42,337 nt of DNA. It comes from a virus. The stretch lies in IMG/VR virus record IMGVR_UViG_3300010370_000072, positions 1 to 42,337 of that record, one strand, 5' to 3'. Each line of letters starts with the position of its first letter. Position 1 is the first letter of the stretch. A model generated the notes under the pieces. The model did no database searches, was not told the DNA's origin, and saw only the letters and a list, made by a program, of their open reading frames with translations. This document shows, piece after piece, positions 5,307-40,073 of this stretch. The position numbers and the translations under genes were made by a program.

Positions 5307-5753
5307 ATGGCATCGGTGGGTAAAGCCGTTGGGAAAGTCGCCGGACGCCATATAGGGGTCAAGTTAGTTCTTGAGGGAATGGAAGAGTTACAAAAGGCTC
5401 TCAAAGAAGGCAAAGAACAATCTCCTAAAGCAATCGCTCAGGCGATATGGGAAGAAGCCAATCTCATCTTTGCTAAATCGCAAGTTTTAGTTCCGGTTGA
5501 TACGGGCGTCCTCCGCGGCTCCGGTGGAGTATCTGCTCCACAACAAGGACCACAAGGATTCTATGTAGATATTTTCTACGGTGGACCGGCGGCACCATAC
5601 GCCCTCTATGTCCATGAGATTATTGAGAACTATCACAAGCCGCCAACACAGGCTAAATATCTTGAACAACCGTTGATGGAGGCTCAAGCCGAGTTACAGA
5701 ATCGGATAAAGGATAGAATAATCGACATTATCGAGAAGGGTCACAGGCAATAA
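5307..5753 (+). CDS. HK97 gp10-like neck/tail-completion protein
   Basis: 148 residues. The hallmarks are GMEELQKALKE near the N-terminus, then VPVDTGVLRGSGG and YALYVHEI. The VxTGxLRxS and YxxxxHE patterns are typical of the HK97-gp10/minor tail family that joins head and tail. Its last base pairs overlap the start of the next gene (TAATGG). Order and length agree with siphovirus neck clusters. Confidence 0.85.
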   Translation: MASVGKAVGKVAGRHIGVKLVLEGMEELQKALKEGKEQSPKAIAQAIWEEANLIFAKSQVLVPVDTGVLRGSGGVSAPQQGPQGFYVDIFYGGPAAPYALYVHEIIENYHKPPTQAKYLEQPLMEAQAELQNRIKDRIIDIIEKGHRQ

Positions 5754-6178
5754 TGGCGACGATATTGGAATCCGTAGGGGATTACCTACAAAATGCGGCG
5801 AGCGCTTTTGGCGCTCACACAAGCCAAGGCACCCTTGGAACTGATTTATTTCTAGGCACCCTCCCTGACTCTCCCGATTCTTGTGTTGCGGTCTATGAGA
5901 ACGCCGGCAGTTCACCAAGTTTCACTATGGGGTCCGGAGGTATTCGTGTTGATTATCCGATGCTTCAGATTATCTGTCGTGCCGCTCGCGAGGATTATCC
6001 AACGGCACGGGACAAGGCAGAAAATATCCGGATTTTACTCGCGTCGGTGCTTGAACAAACCATCTCGGGAGTCCATATTATGCGTATTGAACCAATGGGT
6101 TCAGTAAACCAGTTGGGAGTAGACCCTAAATACCGTCCACTAATCTCGGTGAACTTCCGATGTCTAGTGAGAATGTGA
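5753..6178 (+). CDS. Tail terminator / minor capsid-type protein
   Basis: This 141-residue alpha/beta protein contains LFLGTLPDSPDSCVAVYENAG, then YPMLQIICRAAREDYPTARDKAENIRILL and a final strand ISVNFRCLVRM. It matches the general plan of tail-terminator proteins, which cap the tail tube and connect it to the head. It overlaps the preceding neck gene and the following Com-like gene, so translation is probably coupled. It is the last clear connector gene before the non-structural insert at 6160-9293. Confidence 0.75.
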   Translation: MATILESVGDYLQNAASAFGAHTSQGTLGTDLFLGTLPDSPDSCVAVYENAGSSPSFTMGSGGIRVDYPMLQIICRAAREDYPTARDKAENIRILLASVLEQTISGVHIMRIEPMGSVNQLGVDPKYRPLISVNFRCLVRM

Positions 6179-6348
6179 CACAGGAGCCGACGGCTCCGAA
6201 TGAGAGGCTAGGAGACCCTTATGGCAGGAACGCGACGACGGACGAATACCAAAGGTGCTGGAAATGCGACCGGCTCCTCTTCGAAAGCGCAACGCGCCCG
6301 TGGAGCATCCGCTGTCCGCGCTGTAAATCCAAAAATAAATCAGGATGA
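6160..6348 (+). CDS. Com-like zinc-ribbon protein (overlapping gene)
   Basis: The 62-residue product has a C-terminal zinc ribbon, RCWKCDRLLFE then IRCPRCKSKNK, the layout of phage Mu Com. Com activates translation of Mu mom by binding its mRNA. Here the ribbon starts at residue 33, after a polar N-terminus. The frame starts 19 bases inside the terminator gene and its second half lies, in another frame, over the start of the HTH gene at 6221. The overlap is unusual, but the paired CxxC motifs argue that it is real. No mom-like gene is visible. The RNA-binding role is inferred from Mu. Confidence 0.6.
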   Translation: MSSENVTQEPTAPNERLGDPYGRNATTDEYQRCWKCDRLLFESATRPWSIRCPRCKSKNKSG

Positions 6349-6607
6349 TTTCTTTGCTGATTTAGATTCACTTATTGGAGTTACCCGCGAACAAGGTGGC
6401 TGTTCAGTTGGTGCTTTTGTATCAAGATTAGAAGAACCAATAAAAACAAAGTTGATTGATATTATGAAAAACGAATCAGTAAGTTCAGCCAAACTTAGCG
6501 AACTTCTTTTATCGTATGGGCTTCCGCTATCCTCTACCGATGTGCTGAGAAGGCATCGGCGAAGGCTAATAGGGAAAGACGGGTGTAAGTGTCCGCGTGA
6601 ATCTTGA
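6221..6607 (+). CDS. Actinophage-type HTH protein (CSVG...CKCP family)
   Basis: The 128-residue protein has a basic, low-complexity N-terminus (MAGTRRRTNTKG) and a C-terminal core: GGCSVGAFVSRL, then VSSAKLSELLLSYGLPLSSTDVLRRHRRR, ending in GCKCP. The two-helix element before RHRRR looks like a helix-turn-helix and the cysteines may bind metal. Actinophages often carry such a protein immediately before a metallophosphoesterase, as here. AGGAG precedes the ATG. The first 128 bases overlap the Com-like gene in another frame, and the stop overlaps the next GTG start. Confidence 0.75.
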   Translation: MAGTRRRTNTKGAGNATGSSSKAQRARGASAVRAVNPKINQDDFFADLDSLIGVTREQGGCSVGAFVSRLEEPIKTKLIDIMKNESVSSAKLSELLLSYGLPLSSTDVLRRHRRRLIGKDGCKCPRES

Positions 6608-7790
6608 TGATGCTTTAGATAATCTTCTCAAAACCTCGGAAGTGGAATCGGTCCAAAAGGTTTTGCCTCGCGACCGAAAAGCCGATTGGCTTCCCGGTGT
6701 CACTTGGAATGGCGATGAAGGCACCGTAACTACACAACCAATGGAGGGCGAAAACGCTCCCGATTGGTCCGGAGTCCTTCGAATGTGGGGCTTAGACCCT
6801 GAACATTTTGAAGTTGTTGAGCCTGTTCTTTTCAATGTTTGGGGAGACACCCTTGGCATCCTCAATCGCCAATGGAAAGGCAAAGTAATCCGCAAGGGTA
6901 AGAAACTCAATGCGGATATAGATGATTTGATTAGAGAGATAAAGAAACACAAGCCACGCCAACAAAAACAACTTATCGGAGAAGCCTCACTTGTGGTTGT
7001 TGCCTCAGATTGGCAAGTAGGTAAAAGGGACGGCGATGGATTGAAAGGTTTGATTAGCCGGTGGCTACAAGCGATTGAAGATGTGGAGTGGCGCCTCAAA
7101 GAGTTGAAGAAACTTGGACGCCCAATAGATTCAATAACCGTACTATGTTTAGGCGATTTAGTCGAAGGTTGCGATGGTCATTACGATATACAAACATTTA
7201 CAGTAGAAGAGGACCGCAGAAATCAGGTCAAGATTGCCCGTCGTCTTTTGCGTGATGCTTTGATTCGTTGGTCCAAGTTAGTTCCATCTATCACCGTCGC
7301 GGCAGTTGGCGGTAATCATGGAGAGAATCGCAAGAACGGAAAAGCATTTACTACTCTCAACGATAACGACGATGTGGCTTTAGTCGAACAGGTCGCCGAG
7401 ATATTCGCGGCTAATCCTGAAGCCTATGGTCATGTTCGGTTTGCTATTCCGGCTGAAGAGTTGAGCCTGACCCTTGAGGTCCATGGCAAAATCATTGGAA
7501 TCAGTCACGGTCACTTAGCCCGTAATGCCGGAAGCGTTGAGGGTAAGTTGAAGGCTTGGATTGCCGGTCAAGCCTTGGGTCGTCAATCGATTGGTGATTG
7601 CGACATCCTTGTGACCGGTCATTATCACACTTTCAAGTTGGCAGATTGGGGAGGAGTCAAATGGCTTCAAGCCCCGGCACTAGATGGAGGGAGCGTATGG
7701 TGGCGTCAATCAACGGGGGAAGTTGCGGATGCGGGAGTTCTGACCTTCCTAGTATCGAAAACCGGAGTAAGCGACATTCAGATTCTATGA
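6597..7790 (+). CDS. Calcineurin-like metallophosphoesterase
   Basis: 397 residues from a GTG start that overlaps the end of the HTH gene. The C-terminal two thirds carry the metallophosphoesterase signature in order: SDWQVGK (about 137-143), [10 protein letters not shown] (186-195), GGNHGE (238-243), SHGH (303-306) and GHYH (341-344). The first motif has Gln where His is usual (DxQ instead of DxH). Such enzymes hydrolyse phosphodiesters or nucleic-acid ends with two metal ions. Substrate unknown. The N-terminal 130 residues are unassigned. Pairing with the upstream HTH protein recurs in actinophages. Confidence 0.88.
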
Positions 7791-31068: not shown

Positions 31069-31235
31069 TTTGCGACCTCCTCGTTCACGAAGATTTCTTG
31101 AATGTTGTATAGACCACCGCTGAAAGCAGTTGCGACAATCGCAAAATCTGTCGCTTGTTCGTTGGTCTCAAAGTAATGAGTTCCATTGACTTTGGCACCC
31201 GCTTTTTTGATTTCGACCTTGAAAACCTTTCTCAT
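31065..31235 (-). CDS. Small paralogue of the protein at 30378 (copy 2)
   Basis: 56 residues from the ATG at 31235: MRKVFKVEIKKAGAK, NGTHYFETNEQATDFAIVATAFSGGLY, IQEIFVNEEVAK. It is clearly homologous to the 58-residue product at 30378-30554. Both copies are the first gene behind an operator element, which points to duplication of a promoter-gene cassette. Function unknown. The frame open upstream of this ATG crosses the promoter and is not coding. Confidence 0.75.
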   Translation of the reverse strand: MRKVFKVEIKKAGAKVNGTHYFETNEQATDFAIVATAFSGGLYNIQEIFVNEEVAK

Positions 31236-31239
31236 TTTC

Positions 31240-31280
31240 GTCCCCCTTTCGGACACCATCAGTATAACACAACCGGGGTT
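31240..31280 (-). promoter_or_regulatory. Operator (asymmetric variant) + extended -10 + SD inverted repeat
   Basis: Read leftward: AACCCCGGTT (31271-31280), GTGT, TATACT (31261-31266). GTCC (31251-31254) and GGAC (31240-31243) flank GAAAGGG. It is the promoter of the leftward pair 31235-30886 and lies back to back with the rightward cluster at 31344. Confidence 0.78.
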
Positions 31281-31293
31281 AGAAATCATCCCG

Positions 31294-32193: not shown

Positions 32194-32574
32194 TCAGAGA
32201 GTTCCTCTACCTAACAAAGAGAATCCATCGGCTCTATCGTAGATAAGCCATTCGGCTGATTGGACCTCAAAAGTTTTTTGAAGAGCCGAGAGAACAATGT
32301 CTTTATTTAGTTCCCCGCAGGTATACAAATCAAACTGAAGTAATCCCGGCTCTTCTTCATCCCATATATGAAACGCGCAATGGCTGGTCTCAATCATTAC
32401 AGCGGCGGTGAGTCCGCGGTTACCGGGCTTATCGACATAACTGGCGAATGGTCCCTTGATGATTTTCATTTCAACCGCACTAATCAGGTCGCGTAAAAAC
32501 TCGATGCCTTTCTCCTCATCCTTGATTGGATTACGGATTTTGGCGATGACCATGATGTGCTTATGAAATACCAT
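32194..32574 (-). CDS. speD: SpeD-like S-adenosylmethionine decarboxylase
   Basis: 126 residues, the size of single-chain prokaryotic AdoMetDC. The motif IETSHCAFHIWDE holds the processing Ser64 that would become the pyruvoyl group. His69 and Cys86 (LYTCG) occupy the proton-donor and processing positions, as known for Thermotoga SpeD (Ser63, His68, Cys83). The residue before Ser is Thr instead of Glu; marine phage SpeD proteins, as I recall, share ETSH. The reaction makes decarboxylated AdoMet for spermidine synthesis; related proteins can act on ornithine or arginine, so the substrate is open. AAGGAG precedes the ATG. Confidence 0.85.
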   Translation of the reverse strand: MVFHKHIMVIAKIRNPIKDEEKGIEFLRDLISAVEMKIIKGPFASYVDKPGNRGLTAAVMIETSHCAFHIWDEEEPGLLQFDLYTCGELNKDIVLSALQKTFEVQSAEWLIYDRADGFSLLGRGTL

Positions 32575-33464: not shown

Positions 33465-34388
33465 CTAAGGCTTCACAACCTCGGTAGGTAAAGCCATGAG
33501 TCCAAGCGCGGCGCTCGCCCATAGGTCCGGAGTTTCCGTATCAGGCTGGTAGCCGCCGGCTCCGCCGAGCAGAATCGGGTGGTCAAAGTATTGCTCTCGA
33601 ATCATTCGCATGGATTGGAAGTAGCCATCCTTGGTGTACTCGAGGGATGAGAGCGGGTCATTCTTGAGACCGTCAGCACCGCAAGCAACAAAAATCATAG
33701 TTGGCTGAAACTCTTGGCAAGCCTCGAGAAACATCTCGGTAGCAGAGAGCAAACCTTCGTCACCGGTATTAGAAGCAAGCGGGAAGTTGTAAGCGCGGTT
33801 GCGATAGTCGCTGAGTAAACCGGTACCCGGAAAGATGCCGTACTCATGGACCGAGAAAGTCAAAACATTCTTGTTGGACTTGAGCAATAGTTCGGTGCCG
33901 TCACCATGGTGAGCATCGCAATCGAAGATAGCAACACGGTGACCGTATTCGTTAGTTGCTTTGGTAGCGGCAACAGCGAAATCATTGAATACGCAAAAGC
34001 CGCTGGAATGGTCACGCATCGCGTGATGCTTTGCGCCGGGAAAGTGAACAGCCAATCGCGTCTTGAAATCAATCAAAGTATCGAGAGCAGTCAGAGTACC
34101 GCCAACAAATAACTTGGCTAGTTCGCCGAGGTCATGTCGTTGCCCGTCCCATTCTCCGGATTCACCGCGGATGGTGACATCGAAAACATATTCCATATCG
34201 TGAACGAGATGTAAGTCCTCAGTTGATGGAGCAACAGGTTCTATCTCGTAAACATTGAGGCGACGCTTTTGACCGGCAATAACTAGATTGTTGCGAGCAT
34301 GGAGAAATCTTCGCCCTTGAGTTGGATGCTTAGGGTCGAAAACCCAATCGGCATACTGTGGCGAATGAACAATGATTGCGTGTTCCAT
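33465..34388 (-). CDS. AcuC / acetylpolyamine-deacetylase-like enzyme
   Basis: 307 residues of the arginase-fold deacetylase family. Visible motifs: GAKHHA with the His dyad 121-122, SSGFCVFND (128-136), DCDAHHGDGT (156-165) with metal ligands Asp158 and His160, FSVHEYGIFPGTG, GADGLKNDPLS with Asp239, and GGAGGY ending in Tyr280. All catalytic positions are present. Family members remove acetyl groups from lysines or from acetylpolyamines; the substrate cannot be read from sequence. The gene is grouped with the proteasome-like and SpeD-like genes. Confidence 0.88.
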   Translation of the reverse strand: MEHAIIVHSPQYADWVFDPKHPTQGRRFLHARNNLVIAGQKRRLNVYEIEPVAPSTEDLHLVHDMEYVFDVTIRGESGEWDGQRHDLGELAKLFVGGTLTALDTLIDFKTRLAVHFPGAKHHAMRDHSSGFCVFNDFAVAATKATNEYGHRVAIFDCDAHHGDGTELLLKSNKNVLTFSVHEYGIFPGTGLLSDYRNRAYNFPLASNTGDEGLLSATEMFLEACQEFQPTMIFVACGADGLKNDPLSSLEYTKDGYFQSMRMIREQYFDHPILLGGAGGYQPDTETPDLWASAALGLMALPTEVVKP

Positions 34389-35258: not shown

Positions 35259-35603
35259 CTAAAGAAATCTCTCGGTTGATGTAGCAAACGAAACATTGAC
35301 GAAGCAACTTGCTTTGTAAGCAACCTCGCCTACCTCTTCACAATAGACATCCTTTTGAACGCCTTTGTAAAACACCTTGCCACCACGAATAAACTCGCGG
35401 CGAACGGTGTAGGTATCGTTGAATCCAAGAGTGATTGCTACTCGGTAGCCCTTGCCTACTGGCAAGATGACTTCAACGCACTCGCCCTCTTCGTTGGTGA
35501 TTGCGGTCCAGCGTCCACCGGAAATCGCAAACACATTTATAATGCCGATTTGATTGAGCAGTTCTTTTGGATTGAACGCTCGGCATTGATACTGGTTCTT
35601 CAT
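35259..35603 (-). CDS. Hypothetical beta-rich protein
   Basis: 114 residues beginning MKNQYQCRAFNPKELLNQIG, with GGRWTAITNEEGECVEVILPVGKGYRVAITLGFNDTYTVRREFI and VFYKGVQKDVYCEEVGEVAYKAS. Alternating strands suggest a compact barrel. It is the first gene behind the operator at 35605-35648 and begins a three-gene unit down to 34450. No family recognised. Confidence 0.7.
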   Translation of the reverse strand: MKNQYQCRAFNPKELLNQIGIINVFAISGGRWTAITNEEGECVEVILPVGKGYRVAITLGFNDTYTVRREFIRGGKVFYKGVQKDVYCEEVGEVAYKASCFVNVSFATSTERFL

Positions 35604-35604
35604 T

Positions 35605-35648
35605 TTGTCTCCTCTCTAAGACAATCTGAGTATAACACAACCGGGGTT
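35605..35648 (-). promoter_or_regulatory. Operator + extended -10 + six-pair SD inverted repeat
   Basis: Read leftward: AACCCCGGTT (35639-35648), GTGT, TATACT (35629-35634). TTGTCT (35619-35624) and AGACAA (35605-35610) are perfect inverted arms around TAGAGAGG. The palindrome contains the stop codon of the 39-residue gene upstream. Confidence 0.82.
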
Positions 35649-35766
35649 AGGAACGCTCCCCGTTACTACGGTTTAGGACGATATATTCATTGAGGCAACC
35701 ATCGCAGAGATAAGTCTCAGAATCGATTTGATTCTTGGCTACCGCATCGCAGTTGGCACAAGTCAT
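35647..35766 (-). CDS. Small zinc-ribbon protein (39 aa)
   Basis: 39 residues: MTCANCDAVAKNQ, then YLCDGCLNEYIVL. Two CxxC pairs 15 residues apart make a minimal zinc ribbon. The ATG overlaps the stop of the upstream gene (ATGA) and its TAA is part of the next operator palindrome, so both ends are well anchored. It is too short for most gene finders. Role unknown. Confidence 0.7.
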   Translation of the reverse strand: MTCANCDAVAKNQIDSETYLCDGCLNEYIVLNRSNGERS

Positions 35767-36161
35767 GCTTTCACCTTCTCCGTGACCGAGAAAACCGCAC
35801 CGATTCCGTACTCGCCGGGAAGGTATTTGATTTCGGCATCTTCAGCCTTGACCCAACCGAAGTCGGCGCAAACATAAGTCTGACCCTCGATTTCGATTTC
35901 GTCACCGATTGATAGCGATGTGTGAGTTCTGTCCGAAGCCAATCTTGCTTCGATGACTTTCCACAAGTAAACCTCAAACGCCGTACCGCCAAAGTCGGCT
36001 AGTTCGCTTTGAAGATTAGTTGCTTTGTAAATCGCATTGAGCAATAAAGGATATTTGTCAGCAGGGATTTTGTAATCAAGAATGTCGAACTCGACGCTTG
36101 ATACAAAACGACCTTGTTCGATTCTGTTACCGAACGCCTTCCATGTCACTTTGACTTTCAT
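35763..36161 (-). CDS. Hypothetical beta-rich protein
   Basis: 132 residues: MKVKVTWKAFGNRIEQGRFVSSVEFDILDYKI, then a helical centre (YPLLLNAIYKATNLQSELADFGG) and IGDEIEIEGQTYVCADFGWVKAED. Strands at both ends suggest a small alpha/beta or barrel protein. It is the first gene behind the strong operator element at 36162-36207. No family recognised. Confidence 0.7.
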   Translation of the reverse strand: MKVKVTWKAFGNRIEQGRFVSSVEFDILDYKIPADKYPLLLNAIYKATNLQSELADFGGTAFEVYLWKVIEARLASDRTHTSLSIGDEIEIEGQTYVCADFGWVKAEDAEIKYLPGEYGIGAVFSVTEKVKA

Positions 36162-37649: not shown

Positions 37650-37764
37650 TCAAAATCGCGTAGCCGACTATTCCTTTCGCAGTTCCGTCAAGAACAATCC
37701 AAGCAACAAACATTCCGAGCAAAGTCCATAGTTGCCCAATCATGTCATTGATGAAGTCTTTCAT
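37597..37764 (-). CDS. Small membrane protein coupled to the surface-protein gene
   Basis: 55 residues: [20 protein letters not shown], then AWIVLDGTAKGIVGYAILIT and LGVWALTYPLRRSKE. Two hydrophobic helices are separated by DGTAK. Its ATG overlaps the TAA of the 769-residue gene (TAATG), so translation is coupled. Its last 53 bases overlap the converging membrane-protein gene at 37341-37649. A role in anchoring or export of the surface protein is possible. Confidence 0.62.
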   Translation of the reverse strand: MKDFINDMIGQLWTLLGMFVAWIVLDGTAKGIVGYAILITLGVWALTYPLRRSKE

Positions 37765-40073
37765 TACGGTCTCCTATATCCGATACCGCCGATTGCGGTA
37801 GCCATTGTAGTTGTTGCGATATTGCCAACGATGGTCGCGGCAATGATTGTCTTAGTTGCTTCTTCTCTTTCTTGCGGAGACATATCAGCGCCAAGATTTC
37901 CAATCGCAAAAATAAGTTGTGCCGGTGATTCAAAAATCGCAGAAAGAATCTCAGCCGGAGAAGCGAGCAGTTCTAAAGCCGCGGCAATCTCAGCGGTGAT
38001 GATGACAGGATTGCCGTCCTCATCTTCTCGAGTCTCGACCGGTGTTTGTGGTGGTAGGTCCTCAAGGGTCAATCCCGCTTCGGCGAGCGCACTAACCGGG
38101 ACCGCCGGCGCATCCTCGAACTGAGTTAGGACCGCCTCGACAACAATCTCTTTCTCAGCCTCGGTCATCTTTCCGTCGGCTAAAACATCCTTGACTAAAT
38201 CCTTGACCTCTTCAGCGGTGACGGTTCCATCTTGTACTATGTCCGCCAAAGTATCGGAGGCATCAGATGGTTCTTGTGACGGATTACTTGGCTCTTGTGA
38301 TTGCGACGGTTGCGGTTCTGTATCTGACTTATCTGAATCGTCGTCATCCGTTGTCGTCGGTTCATCATCAGGATTTTTCGAATCGTCTGATTCAGTCGGC
38401 TCAGGTTCTACTGGTTGTGGCGTGGATTCTTCTTGTGTTGGTTCGGGACTAGGTTCATCCGATGGTTGTGGTTCAGGTGTTTGATTTGACGGGTCGGTTT
38501 CCGTTGGGCTTTCGGACGGTTGAGGCTCCGGTTCTTGAGAAGGCTCAGGAGTTGGCGATGGCTCAGGGTCGGGAGAAGGTGACGCTCCGGGACTTGGACT
38601 TGGCTCAGGTTCAGGGGACGGAGTGGGAGTGGGTTGAGGAGTCGGAACGGGAGTCGGTGATTGCTCCGGGGTTGGTGTTGGACTCGGAACAGGGATTGGT
38701 GTTGGATTCGGCTCGGGCTGTGGAACGGGTGTCGGAGAAGGAGTAAGAGATGGCTGAGGAGAAGGTGTGGGTTCAGGCGTGGACGGCGAGGGTTCCGGGG
38801 TCGGTTGCGGTTGAGCGCTCTGTGTTGGCTCAGGTTGCGGGCTTGGAGAACTTGTTGCCGTTGGTGCCGATGTTGGTTCAGGTGAAGGAGAAGGAGTGGG
38901 AGTTGGCTCCGTCGTACTTGATGTCGGCTCCGGCGTTGGCGAAGGTTGAGGAGTCACTTGAGGTGTTGCCTCCGGCGAAGGAGTTGGAGTAGCGTCGCCA
39001 TATTCAAGGATTACTTGTAGGCGCTTTGCGATTCCATGGCAAGGGTCACTAAAAATACTATTGACCGCTTGAATCACAGCATTGTTTTCACCAAGAAAAA
39101 TCTTTGAAACTTTTACTATCGAGTTCGCCGCATGGCATTGAGCATTGATGACAAAATCATTAGGCAGACCATAACTAGCAAAAATCACCGAAGTAAAAAT
39201 CTTTCCAATCGGAGCGGATAGATTCAAAGATTCGTTTTCGTTTGCCGTACCATTTACGCGATTGGAAGGGGGCGTCGATGGCGCAGGTGTTGTGGTTTCT
39301 GTTTGGGTTGGGCTTGGGCTTGGCGCTGGACTTTGTGTTGGTGAAGGTGATGCTTCGCTCGGTTGAGGAGAAGGTGTTGTCGTTGGAGTCGGCTCGGGTG
39401 ATGGAGCGCTTGAATCTGTTGGAGTCGGAGTTGCGCTGGCAGAGGGCGAAGGCTCAGGCGTTGGAGTCGGACTTGGAGAGGGCGAATCTGAAGGCGTCGG
39501 AGAAGGCGAAGCAGATGGTTCAGGAGATACGGTCGCAGTCGGAGTATCAGATGTCGGAGAAGGCGAAGGCTCAGGCGTTGGCGAAGGGGTGGGGGTGGGT
39601 GTTGGGATTGGAGCAGGAGAACTCACCGAAATCGTAAAGATAGGTCCGTACCATCCCGCCCAAAAACCGTTATCGATTCCGGATAGATTGATTGTTACTT
39701 GACCGGAGACGGTCGCACTTACACTTGTTTGTTCAATCGTATTTCCACTAAAACTTTGACCATTGATTGAGACGCTCCAACTATCAGCAATCGGAGTACA
39801 ACTACCAATACAGTTCGCGATTGTGTTATTGATTGAAACCGTTACCGTCGAACCATCGCTAACCGTAGTTAGATAAGTCGCGCTTCCACCTCGATAATCA
39901 AACTGAATCGAGTCGCCGGAGACATTGCCATTGACCACCGATTGCCATGAGGCATCGGCGCTCGCTGAATCCGACATGGGCAAGATGCTCCAAAAGAGGA
40001 TAAAGCACGAAACAACTAAAACGCGCAAAGTACGCAATACGGACAAACTCCTGCTTGGGGTCACGCAGGACAC
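37764..40073 (-). CDS. Secreted lectin-like surface protein with Pro/Ser/Thr linkers
   Basis: 769 residues with a signal peptide ([26 protein letters not shown]). A beta domain follows (about 42-150, [17 protein letters not shown] ... [10 protein letters not shown]). Long repeats of [12 protein letters not shown] type flank a domain at about 275-365 ([22 protein letters not shown] ... DPCHGIAK) resembling a SUEL-type galactose/rhamnose-binding lectin. The C-terminus has DGTVTAEEV and DGKMTEAEK loops and a terminal membrane helix ending YRRP. The GTG start at 40073 is uncertain; TTG codons further in are alternatives. The layout resembles cell-surface proteins of actinobacteria, so host origin is plausible. 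Confidence 0.75.

Follow-up and report, generated by a model that had tools for sequence, protein, structure and literature searches.

The stretch of viral DNA analysed here (the window) is the IMG/VR record IMGVR_UViG_3300010370_000072, 42,337 nt long. Between a tail terminator gene and a metallophosphoesterase gene it carries two small genes that share 128 nt in different frames, with an inverted repeat ahead of the shared part:

5753..6178, + strand: tail terminator gene (PF12691, E = 1.2e-12; PHROG 2595, E = 2.4e-23)
6160..6348, + strand: Com-like zinc-ribbon gene, 62 aa (189 nt), weak match to PF10122, also PHROG 6417 and 13819
6183..6197, + strand: inverted repeat and predicted RNA hairpin, GGAGCC-GAC-GGCTCC, from conservation
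6202..6214, + strand: ribosome-binding region of the nested gene, with a conserved GAGAG (6202-6206) and, in the window, AGGAG (6210-6214)
6221..6348, + strand: overlap, Com codons 21-62 and nested residues 1-42, from ORF coordinates and codon comparison
6221..6607, + strand: nested HTH-like gene, 128 aa, from a profile match and a model
6253..6336, + strand: ribbon core R32-N59 with Cys33, Cys36, Cys52 and Cys55, from aligned homologues and a model
6597..7790, + strand: metallophosphoesterase/exonuclease gene (PHROG 284 'exonuclease', E = 7.1e-66)

The Com-like gene starts within the last 19 nt of the tail terminator gene, and the ATG of the nested gene lies inside Com codon 21 (TAT/G), in the +1 frame relative to com. 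The nested ORF (6221-6607) in turn overlaps the start of the phosphoesterase gene at 6597, which has relatives in 782 phage records. The inverted repeat of the window sits 4 nt past the tail terminator stop and 23 nt ahead of the nested ATG.

The first-pass annotation had read 6160-6348 as a Com-type ribbon, CWKC ... CPRC, and both coordinates and motifs proved exact. The protein matches PF10122 (Zn_ribbon_Com) with E = 6e-4 and 19.7 bits, under the curated cut-off of 22.9; on this score we call it Com-like and do not file it under PF10122. The homologue from Arthrobacter phage Ottawa (L161) reaches 23.6 bits, above the cut-off, and those of L163, L176 and L179 fall below it. There are also matches to PHROG 6417 ('translational regulator', 5e-5) and PHROG 13819 ('gpCom', 2e-4), and comparison with the Mu com ORF finds the PF10122 pattern present: CxxC ... 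CxxC, with LL separating the two pairs and RCK at the second of them. The four ribbon cysteines are invariant in two alignments, of 27 and of 25 homologues. The structural model has a beta ribbon from about residue 27, a block at pLDDT 90-95 (residues 31-60) and an N-terminus of low confidence; a fold search returned no PDB match with E <= 0.001, an absence that is not evidence for a new fold. A scan of viral contigs gave 192 relatives of the Com frame, of which 80, 84-100% identical, were kept. The window and L001-L159 supplied 76 distinct 189-nt haplotypes, in which codons 21-62 carry many silent changes but encode an almost unchanging peptide; the same was seen in a second set of 76 haplotypes, the long-form ones with their flanks. 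Four of the 160 sources yielded no Com for this set, three being cut by contig ends or unmatched and one (L154) later recovered. In the table of the first set, the opening codons of eleven haplotypes with an N-terminus one codon shorter do not line up with the rest, nor do those of L118, whose different N-terminus explains the table's one internal stop. The protein is probably a regulator that binds RNA.

Bases 6221-6348 had also been proposed to encode the N-terminus of the next protein in another frame; they supply its first 42 residues. Both frames are open in all 62 distinct overlap sequences, each of which has 2-5 stops in the third frame. The sampled homologues keep both frames and the four cysteines with no stop in the overlap; the outcome named beforehand as refuting the proposal, one frame kept with stops or lost cysteines in the other, was thus not seen among them. 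Parsimony changes in the overlap fall 42/11/240 at Com codon positions 1/2/3, pairs of sequences differ on average at a fraction of 0.010 of their residues in Com and 0.305 in the nested protein, and 36 of 42 Com residues are invariant, set against 5 of 41 in the nested protein. Protein-level selection in the overlap, as these substitutions record it, acts mainly on the Com frame. By our reading of the codons, few silent changes in Com could introduce a stop into the nested reading frame, so that an open frame by itself says little; the argument that the dual coding is real is carried by the ATG and the downstream protein, both conserved, and by the ribosome-binding sequence upstream. The ATG is present in 76/76 haplotypes, with no change in the third base of Tyr21, and TAT makes up only 60% of the 88 Tyr codons in 11 window genes. 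Third bases never changed at Com codons 30, 37 and 39 and changed once at codon 59; some of the constraint in the overlap may come from the nested frame or from the RNA. Two loci (L174 and L175) have ACG in place of the nested ATG, the first in-frame start being a TTG nine bases on, and in L189 the nested frame stops early, at 86 aa, beyond the overlap, with Com intact. On this comparative evidence we regard the locus as a genuine dual-coding gene junction.

The nested protein has a helical domain at about residues 41-116 and a C-terminal CKC, and its part downstream of the overlap is conserved. In the model, residues 1-35 have a pLDDT below 50 and helices start from residue 41; the overlap ends at residue 42. 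Because the overlapped arm is predicted to be disordered, the junction looks like overprinting: the HTH-like gene would have been extended upstream into a frame in which the Com peptide allows hardly any stops, giving rise to a disordered arm. The protein had no Pfam hit and no PDB fold match at E <= 0.001 (again not evidence for a new fold), a second pass over the Foldseek list gave only rows of Z 2.1-2.5, and the search against BFVD found an uncultured phage protein (E = 6.6e-7). By profile comparison, residues 60-116 match proteins of Streptomyces phages RedBear and Nanodon (probability 90.9%, E = 1.1e-6), the former annotated as HTH and the latter without that annotation. In these phages the small gene lies directly before the phosphoesterase gene and overlaps it by 8 nt (RedBear gp43-44, Nanodon gp44-45), a slight overlap of the kind seen in the window pair (6221-6607 and 6597-7790); in contrast to the window, the gene preceding the pair is not Com-like in the two phages and there is no N-terminal arm. 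The original HTH label is helped by this match and by the shared place upstream of the phosphoesterase, and is weakened by the lack of Pfam and PDB matches, so that the assignment is an indirect one, made through the profile match alone.

Relatives occur in about 200 environmental phage contigs (192 and 214 in two scans); among bacterial genomes there was one, in a Dehalococcoidia MAG. The viral-contig scan with the nested frame gave 80 relatives. When the folded domain of the nested protein was used alone, the Com ribbon was found in the other frame in 75/75 testable loci (best 80 of 183 relatives fetched, five of them cut by contig ends), and a scan with the folded domain of L176 matched only its own contig. 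The family consists of uncultured phages that are probably actinobacterial, a label given because relatives occur in phages of Arthrobacter and Streptomyces. Com itself matched 15 phage records, and no Streptomyces phage is among them. In the GenBank entries of Laroye (L163), Waltz (L165), Salgado, LiSara and Shrooms no gene is annotated under the Com-like frame.

A further 21 more distant or unusual Com loci, several of them near-copies of each other, divide into 12 without the nested HTH-like gene and nine with it, counting the shortened L189. By eye, an ORF resembling the tail terminator lies just upstream or one gene away in 19 of the 21, the exceptions being L172 and L173. In many sampled phages, then, the Com-like gene is found at or near the end of the tail terminator gene, with or without the nested gene, and where the HTH-like/phosphoesterase pair follows com, the HTH-like gene starts inside com in the +1 frame. 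Our reading of these arrangements is that Com belongs to the tail-terminator slot and the HTH-like gene to the phosphoesterase, the overlap being the meeting place of two gene blocks. The Arthrobacter phages (Ottawa, Kovu, Laroyevirus) have the same ribbon in the same region just past the tail-connector genes; they differ in that a small gene separates tail terminator and Com and no nested HTH-like gene is seen. In three Laroyevirus records the gene after Com (L163:4179-4346, L162:4200-4373, L165:4176-4370) shares 50 nt with the end of the Com-frame ORF. Its product contains Cys-Lys-Cys, which in L162 and L163 lies near the C-terminus; the nested gene of the window has its CKC at the tail.

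Between the two starts the 6-bp stem of the inverted repeat is conserved and its 3-nt loop is free to vary. Over the 76 haplotypes its 12 stem positions account for a single parsimony change and its 3-nt loop for 40 (10, 14 and 16), with ten loop sequences occurring; when the stem template is slid along com, the real site is the lowest of 154 placements, with 1 change against 7 for the next. Among 232 loci with a deeply buried Com start (recognised by sequence pattern, about 19 nt inside the tail terminator gene), 205 have this long form, 26 a short form, GGAG-N4-CTCC, in which the spacing from GGAG to CTCC falls from 7 to 4 bp, and one (L147) a U-G pair, whereas the repeat is present in 0/17 loci of the other layout (Com with its own upstream site, or overlapping the stop by a few bases); the loci overlap and some were fetched repeatedly, so that the counts represent 78 and 11 distinct upstream sequences, and two more loci were too short upstream to judge. 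The short and U-G forms retain a shorter or a wobble stem, and because of them we infer that it is the RNA, not the DNA, in which the repeat functions. Repeat and deeply buried start agree in 105/105 rows of a tree, with three changes; as both lie within the same ~40 nt, a single replacement may have removed the two together. The distance from stop to repeat is 4 nt in 72 of 79 distinct upstream sequences (six were not parsed and one parsed as 0), and from repeat to ATG it is 23 nt in all but three, which have 17 nt.

Folding gives a mixed picture. The local hairpin is part of the 54-nt minimum-energy fold in four of nine repeat-bearing loci (window, L006, L064 and L245) and absent from it in L003, L126, L132, L147 and L153; at 170 nt it forms in two of five (window and L245, not L003, L006 or L126). 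The z-scores of the 54-nt folds run from -2.35 in the window to -0.76. The covariation test on 23 aligned sequences found no pair altered on both sides, and Rfam gave no match in 5700-6700 up to E = 1. At a similar place L118 has an unrelated inverted repeat, TGTAG-AAC-CTACA, which folds in 170 nt and not in 54 nt and could be chance. On balance the conserved inverted repeat is probably an RNA hairpin. The 3' arm recurs at Com codons 38-40 as GGCTCCTC; long-range pairing of the 5' arm with this second copy was considered and rejected, as it shows no covariation, codon 38 varies independently and some repeat-bearing loci have lost the copy.

The two starts differ in their translation signals. 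No clear Shine-Dalgarno sequence precedes the Com ATG, where the anti-SD energy is -3.0 (family mean -2.88 over 39; mean of random positions -2.48). At the nested start it is -7.3 in the window and averages -4.98 over 57 distinct upstream sequences (range -8.3 to +0.4), an average that is only moderate, as 18% of random positions match it. Com codon 15 (GAG), which falls in the nested ribosome-binding region, has no changes. The lack of a clear Shine-Dalgarno sequence and the buried start of Com suggest that it would be made by restarting ribosomes. We suggest that ribosomes terminating at the tail terminator stop restart and translate Com, while the repeat, folded in the RNA, would keep the Com and nested start sites apart by making it harder for terminating ribosomes to continue to the nested start. 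Com output would follow translation of the tail terminator, and the HTH-like gene would use its own ribosome-binding site. This whole explanation (overprinting, restart at Com and a repeat that insulates the nested start), read from sequence and models, is tentative, and we give it a probability of about 0.45. In a random-sequence library described in a review, coupling is negatively correlated with the structure predicted immediately behind the upstream stop (PMC12548453). Against an insulator, no pair had changed on both sides, the short forms depart from the full stem, and an insulator needs pairing only and not a fixed sequence. An antiswitch, in which the 3' arm would hide the nested ribosome-binding site while a ribosome covers the 5' arm, was also tried and rejected, as it had no consistent effect; with the 5' arm blocked, accessibility of the nested ribosome-binding region changed little (0.580 vs 0.558; in the window 0.516 vs 0.567).

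The first-pass annotation had raised the possibility of a local circuit analogous to that of Mu, with the HTH gene in place of mom. Applied to the repeat, this would mean that the Com-like protein recognises the hairpin at 6183-6197 of its own transcript and thereby controls translation of the nested gene, activating it as for mom or repressing it. The parts and their order agree with Mu: both loci have a 62-aa Com with a C4 ribbon of the same type, encoded by an ORF of 189 nt that overlaps the start of the downstream gene (in Mu at 35907-35956), and in both a hairpin or inverted repeat precedes that start, the Mu motif that we found ending 15 nt before mom and the repeat here 23 nt (or 17) before the nested ATG. 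A fixed stem sequence would suit a protein ligand, and the long-form loop is closed by C-G, a closing pair that was invariable in the SELEX RNAs of a Com zinc finger (PMC6483171). There are also differences. The downstream gene encodes an HTH-like protein and not mom, the DNA modification enzyme; the overlap is 128 nt from Com codon 21, whereas in Mu it takes up the last 50 nt of com; the ribbon is C-terminal here and the repeat lies ahead of its codons; and the Mu-type RNA motif is not conserved. Its core, reported as CC(N)2-3GAG in a hairpin loop (PMC6483171), stands beside the repeat in only 28/76 haplotypes and is absent from the window's site (CC(N)4GAG is in 76/76). The short-form hairpins have no C-G closing pair, L118, L252 and L260 have the same ribbon and nested gene with no repeat, and neither the folds nor the accessibility calculation found a conserved alternative structure hiding the nested start. 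The ribbon, the dual coding and a repeat upstream of the nested start are supported, but Com acting on the nested gene is not: Com is also present without that gene (12/21 inspected loci), the Mu motif is unconserved and the repeat is missing in 17 loci. We consider such a switch possible but rather unlikely, and a translation-coupling or insulating element more likely. Were it nevertheless real, a Com ribbon untied to mom would bind a CC-NNN-GG hairpin in its own coding region and set the output of the overprinted gene, so that one 190-nt stretch would encode a regulator, its RNA site, the start site of its target and the target's N-terminus; we doubt this.

The repeat might instead owe its conservation to the protein that it encodes. 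On plain compaction, the overlap would be an accident of joining two blocks and the repeat would reflect a Glu-Pro-x-Ala-Pro motif with fixed codons; in keeping with this, among the matches listed in viral contigs the same DNA pattern occurs without a Com ribbon within 230 nt in 46/120. The codons speak against it. The first two bases of codon 11 changed 30 times and the third never; codons 9 and 12 have no silent changes, while their neighbours 10 and 13 have 10 and 11 third-base changes; and all four third positions in the stem are unchanged, for which the chance is 4e-4 over codons 7-62 or 0.005 over codons 7-20. We judge compaction distinctly unlikely. A DNA operator, for instance one through which the HTH-like protein regulates itself, would leave RNA structure irrelevant; a perfect, nearly invariant palindrome with a free 3-bp spacer, near the gene of a possible DNA-binding protein, is what one would look for. 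Yet the short form alters the GGAG-CTCC spacing, the repeat is missing from loci that retain the HTH-like gene, and the window holds one exact copy, so that an operator is very improbable. As a site used many times the repeat was likewise rejected, matches with up to two mismatches numbering 3 against 1.13 expected.

Restart at Com with an insulated nested start has a further parallel in the translational coupling of coat and lysis genes in MS2 and fr, which to our knowledge involves no zinc protein and no nested third gene. There too the downstream start is buried before the upstream stop, with larger offsets of 38-50 nt (PMC12548453). The same review states that over 80% of overlaps are under 30 bp (PMC12548453); long ones on the same strand are uncommon. 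Com proteins, overlapping starts and coupling hairpins are already known; in the open-access literature searched we found no Com-like ribbon overprinted over 128 nt with a conserved repeat separating the two starts, and no actinophage Com-like gene that holds a nested one. Both proteins, the start codon and the conserved repeat can be traced across 97 distinct natural variants, so that the overlap offers a testable system for two questions: how overprinting begins, here with a disordered arm encoded in the second frame of zinc-ribbon codons, and which roles Com proteins have outside Mu. With the nested start and the repeat inside so small a gene, the junction is an unusually compact place to study translation control in phages.

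Elsewhere in the window, 37764-40073 (-) encodes a 769-aa protein rich in Pro, Ser, Thr and Glu, which weakly resembles a SUEL lectin domain (E = 9.7e-6; 26.3 bits against a cut-off of 31.4). Two 61-nt direct repeats (31232-31292 and 35600-35660, +), 74% alike and with GTATAACACAACCGGGGTTAG in common, are perhaps a promoter or operator common to the flanking genes. A histone-deacetylase-family protein (33465-34388, -; PF00850, E = 7.2e-58) is encoded close to an S-adenosylmethionine decarboxylase (32194-32574, -; PF02675, E = 1.9e-13), and the two genes are perhaps a phage polyamine pair.
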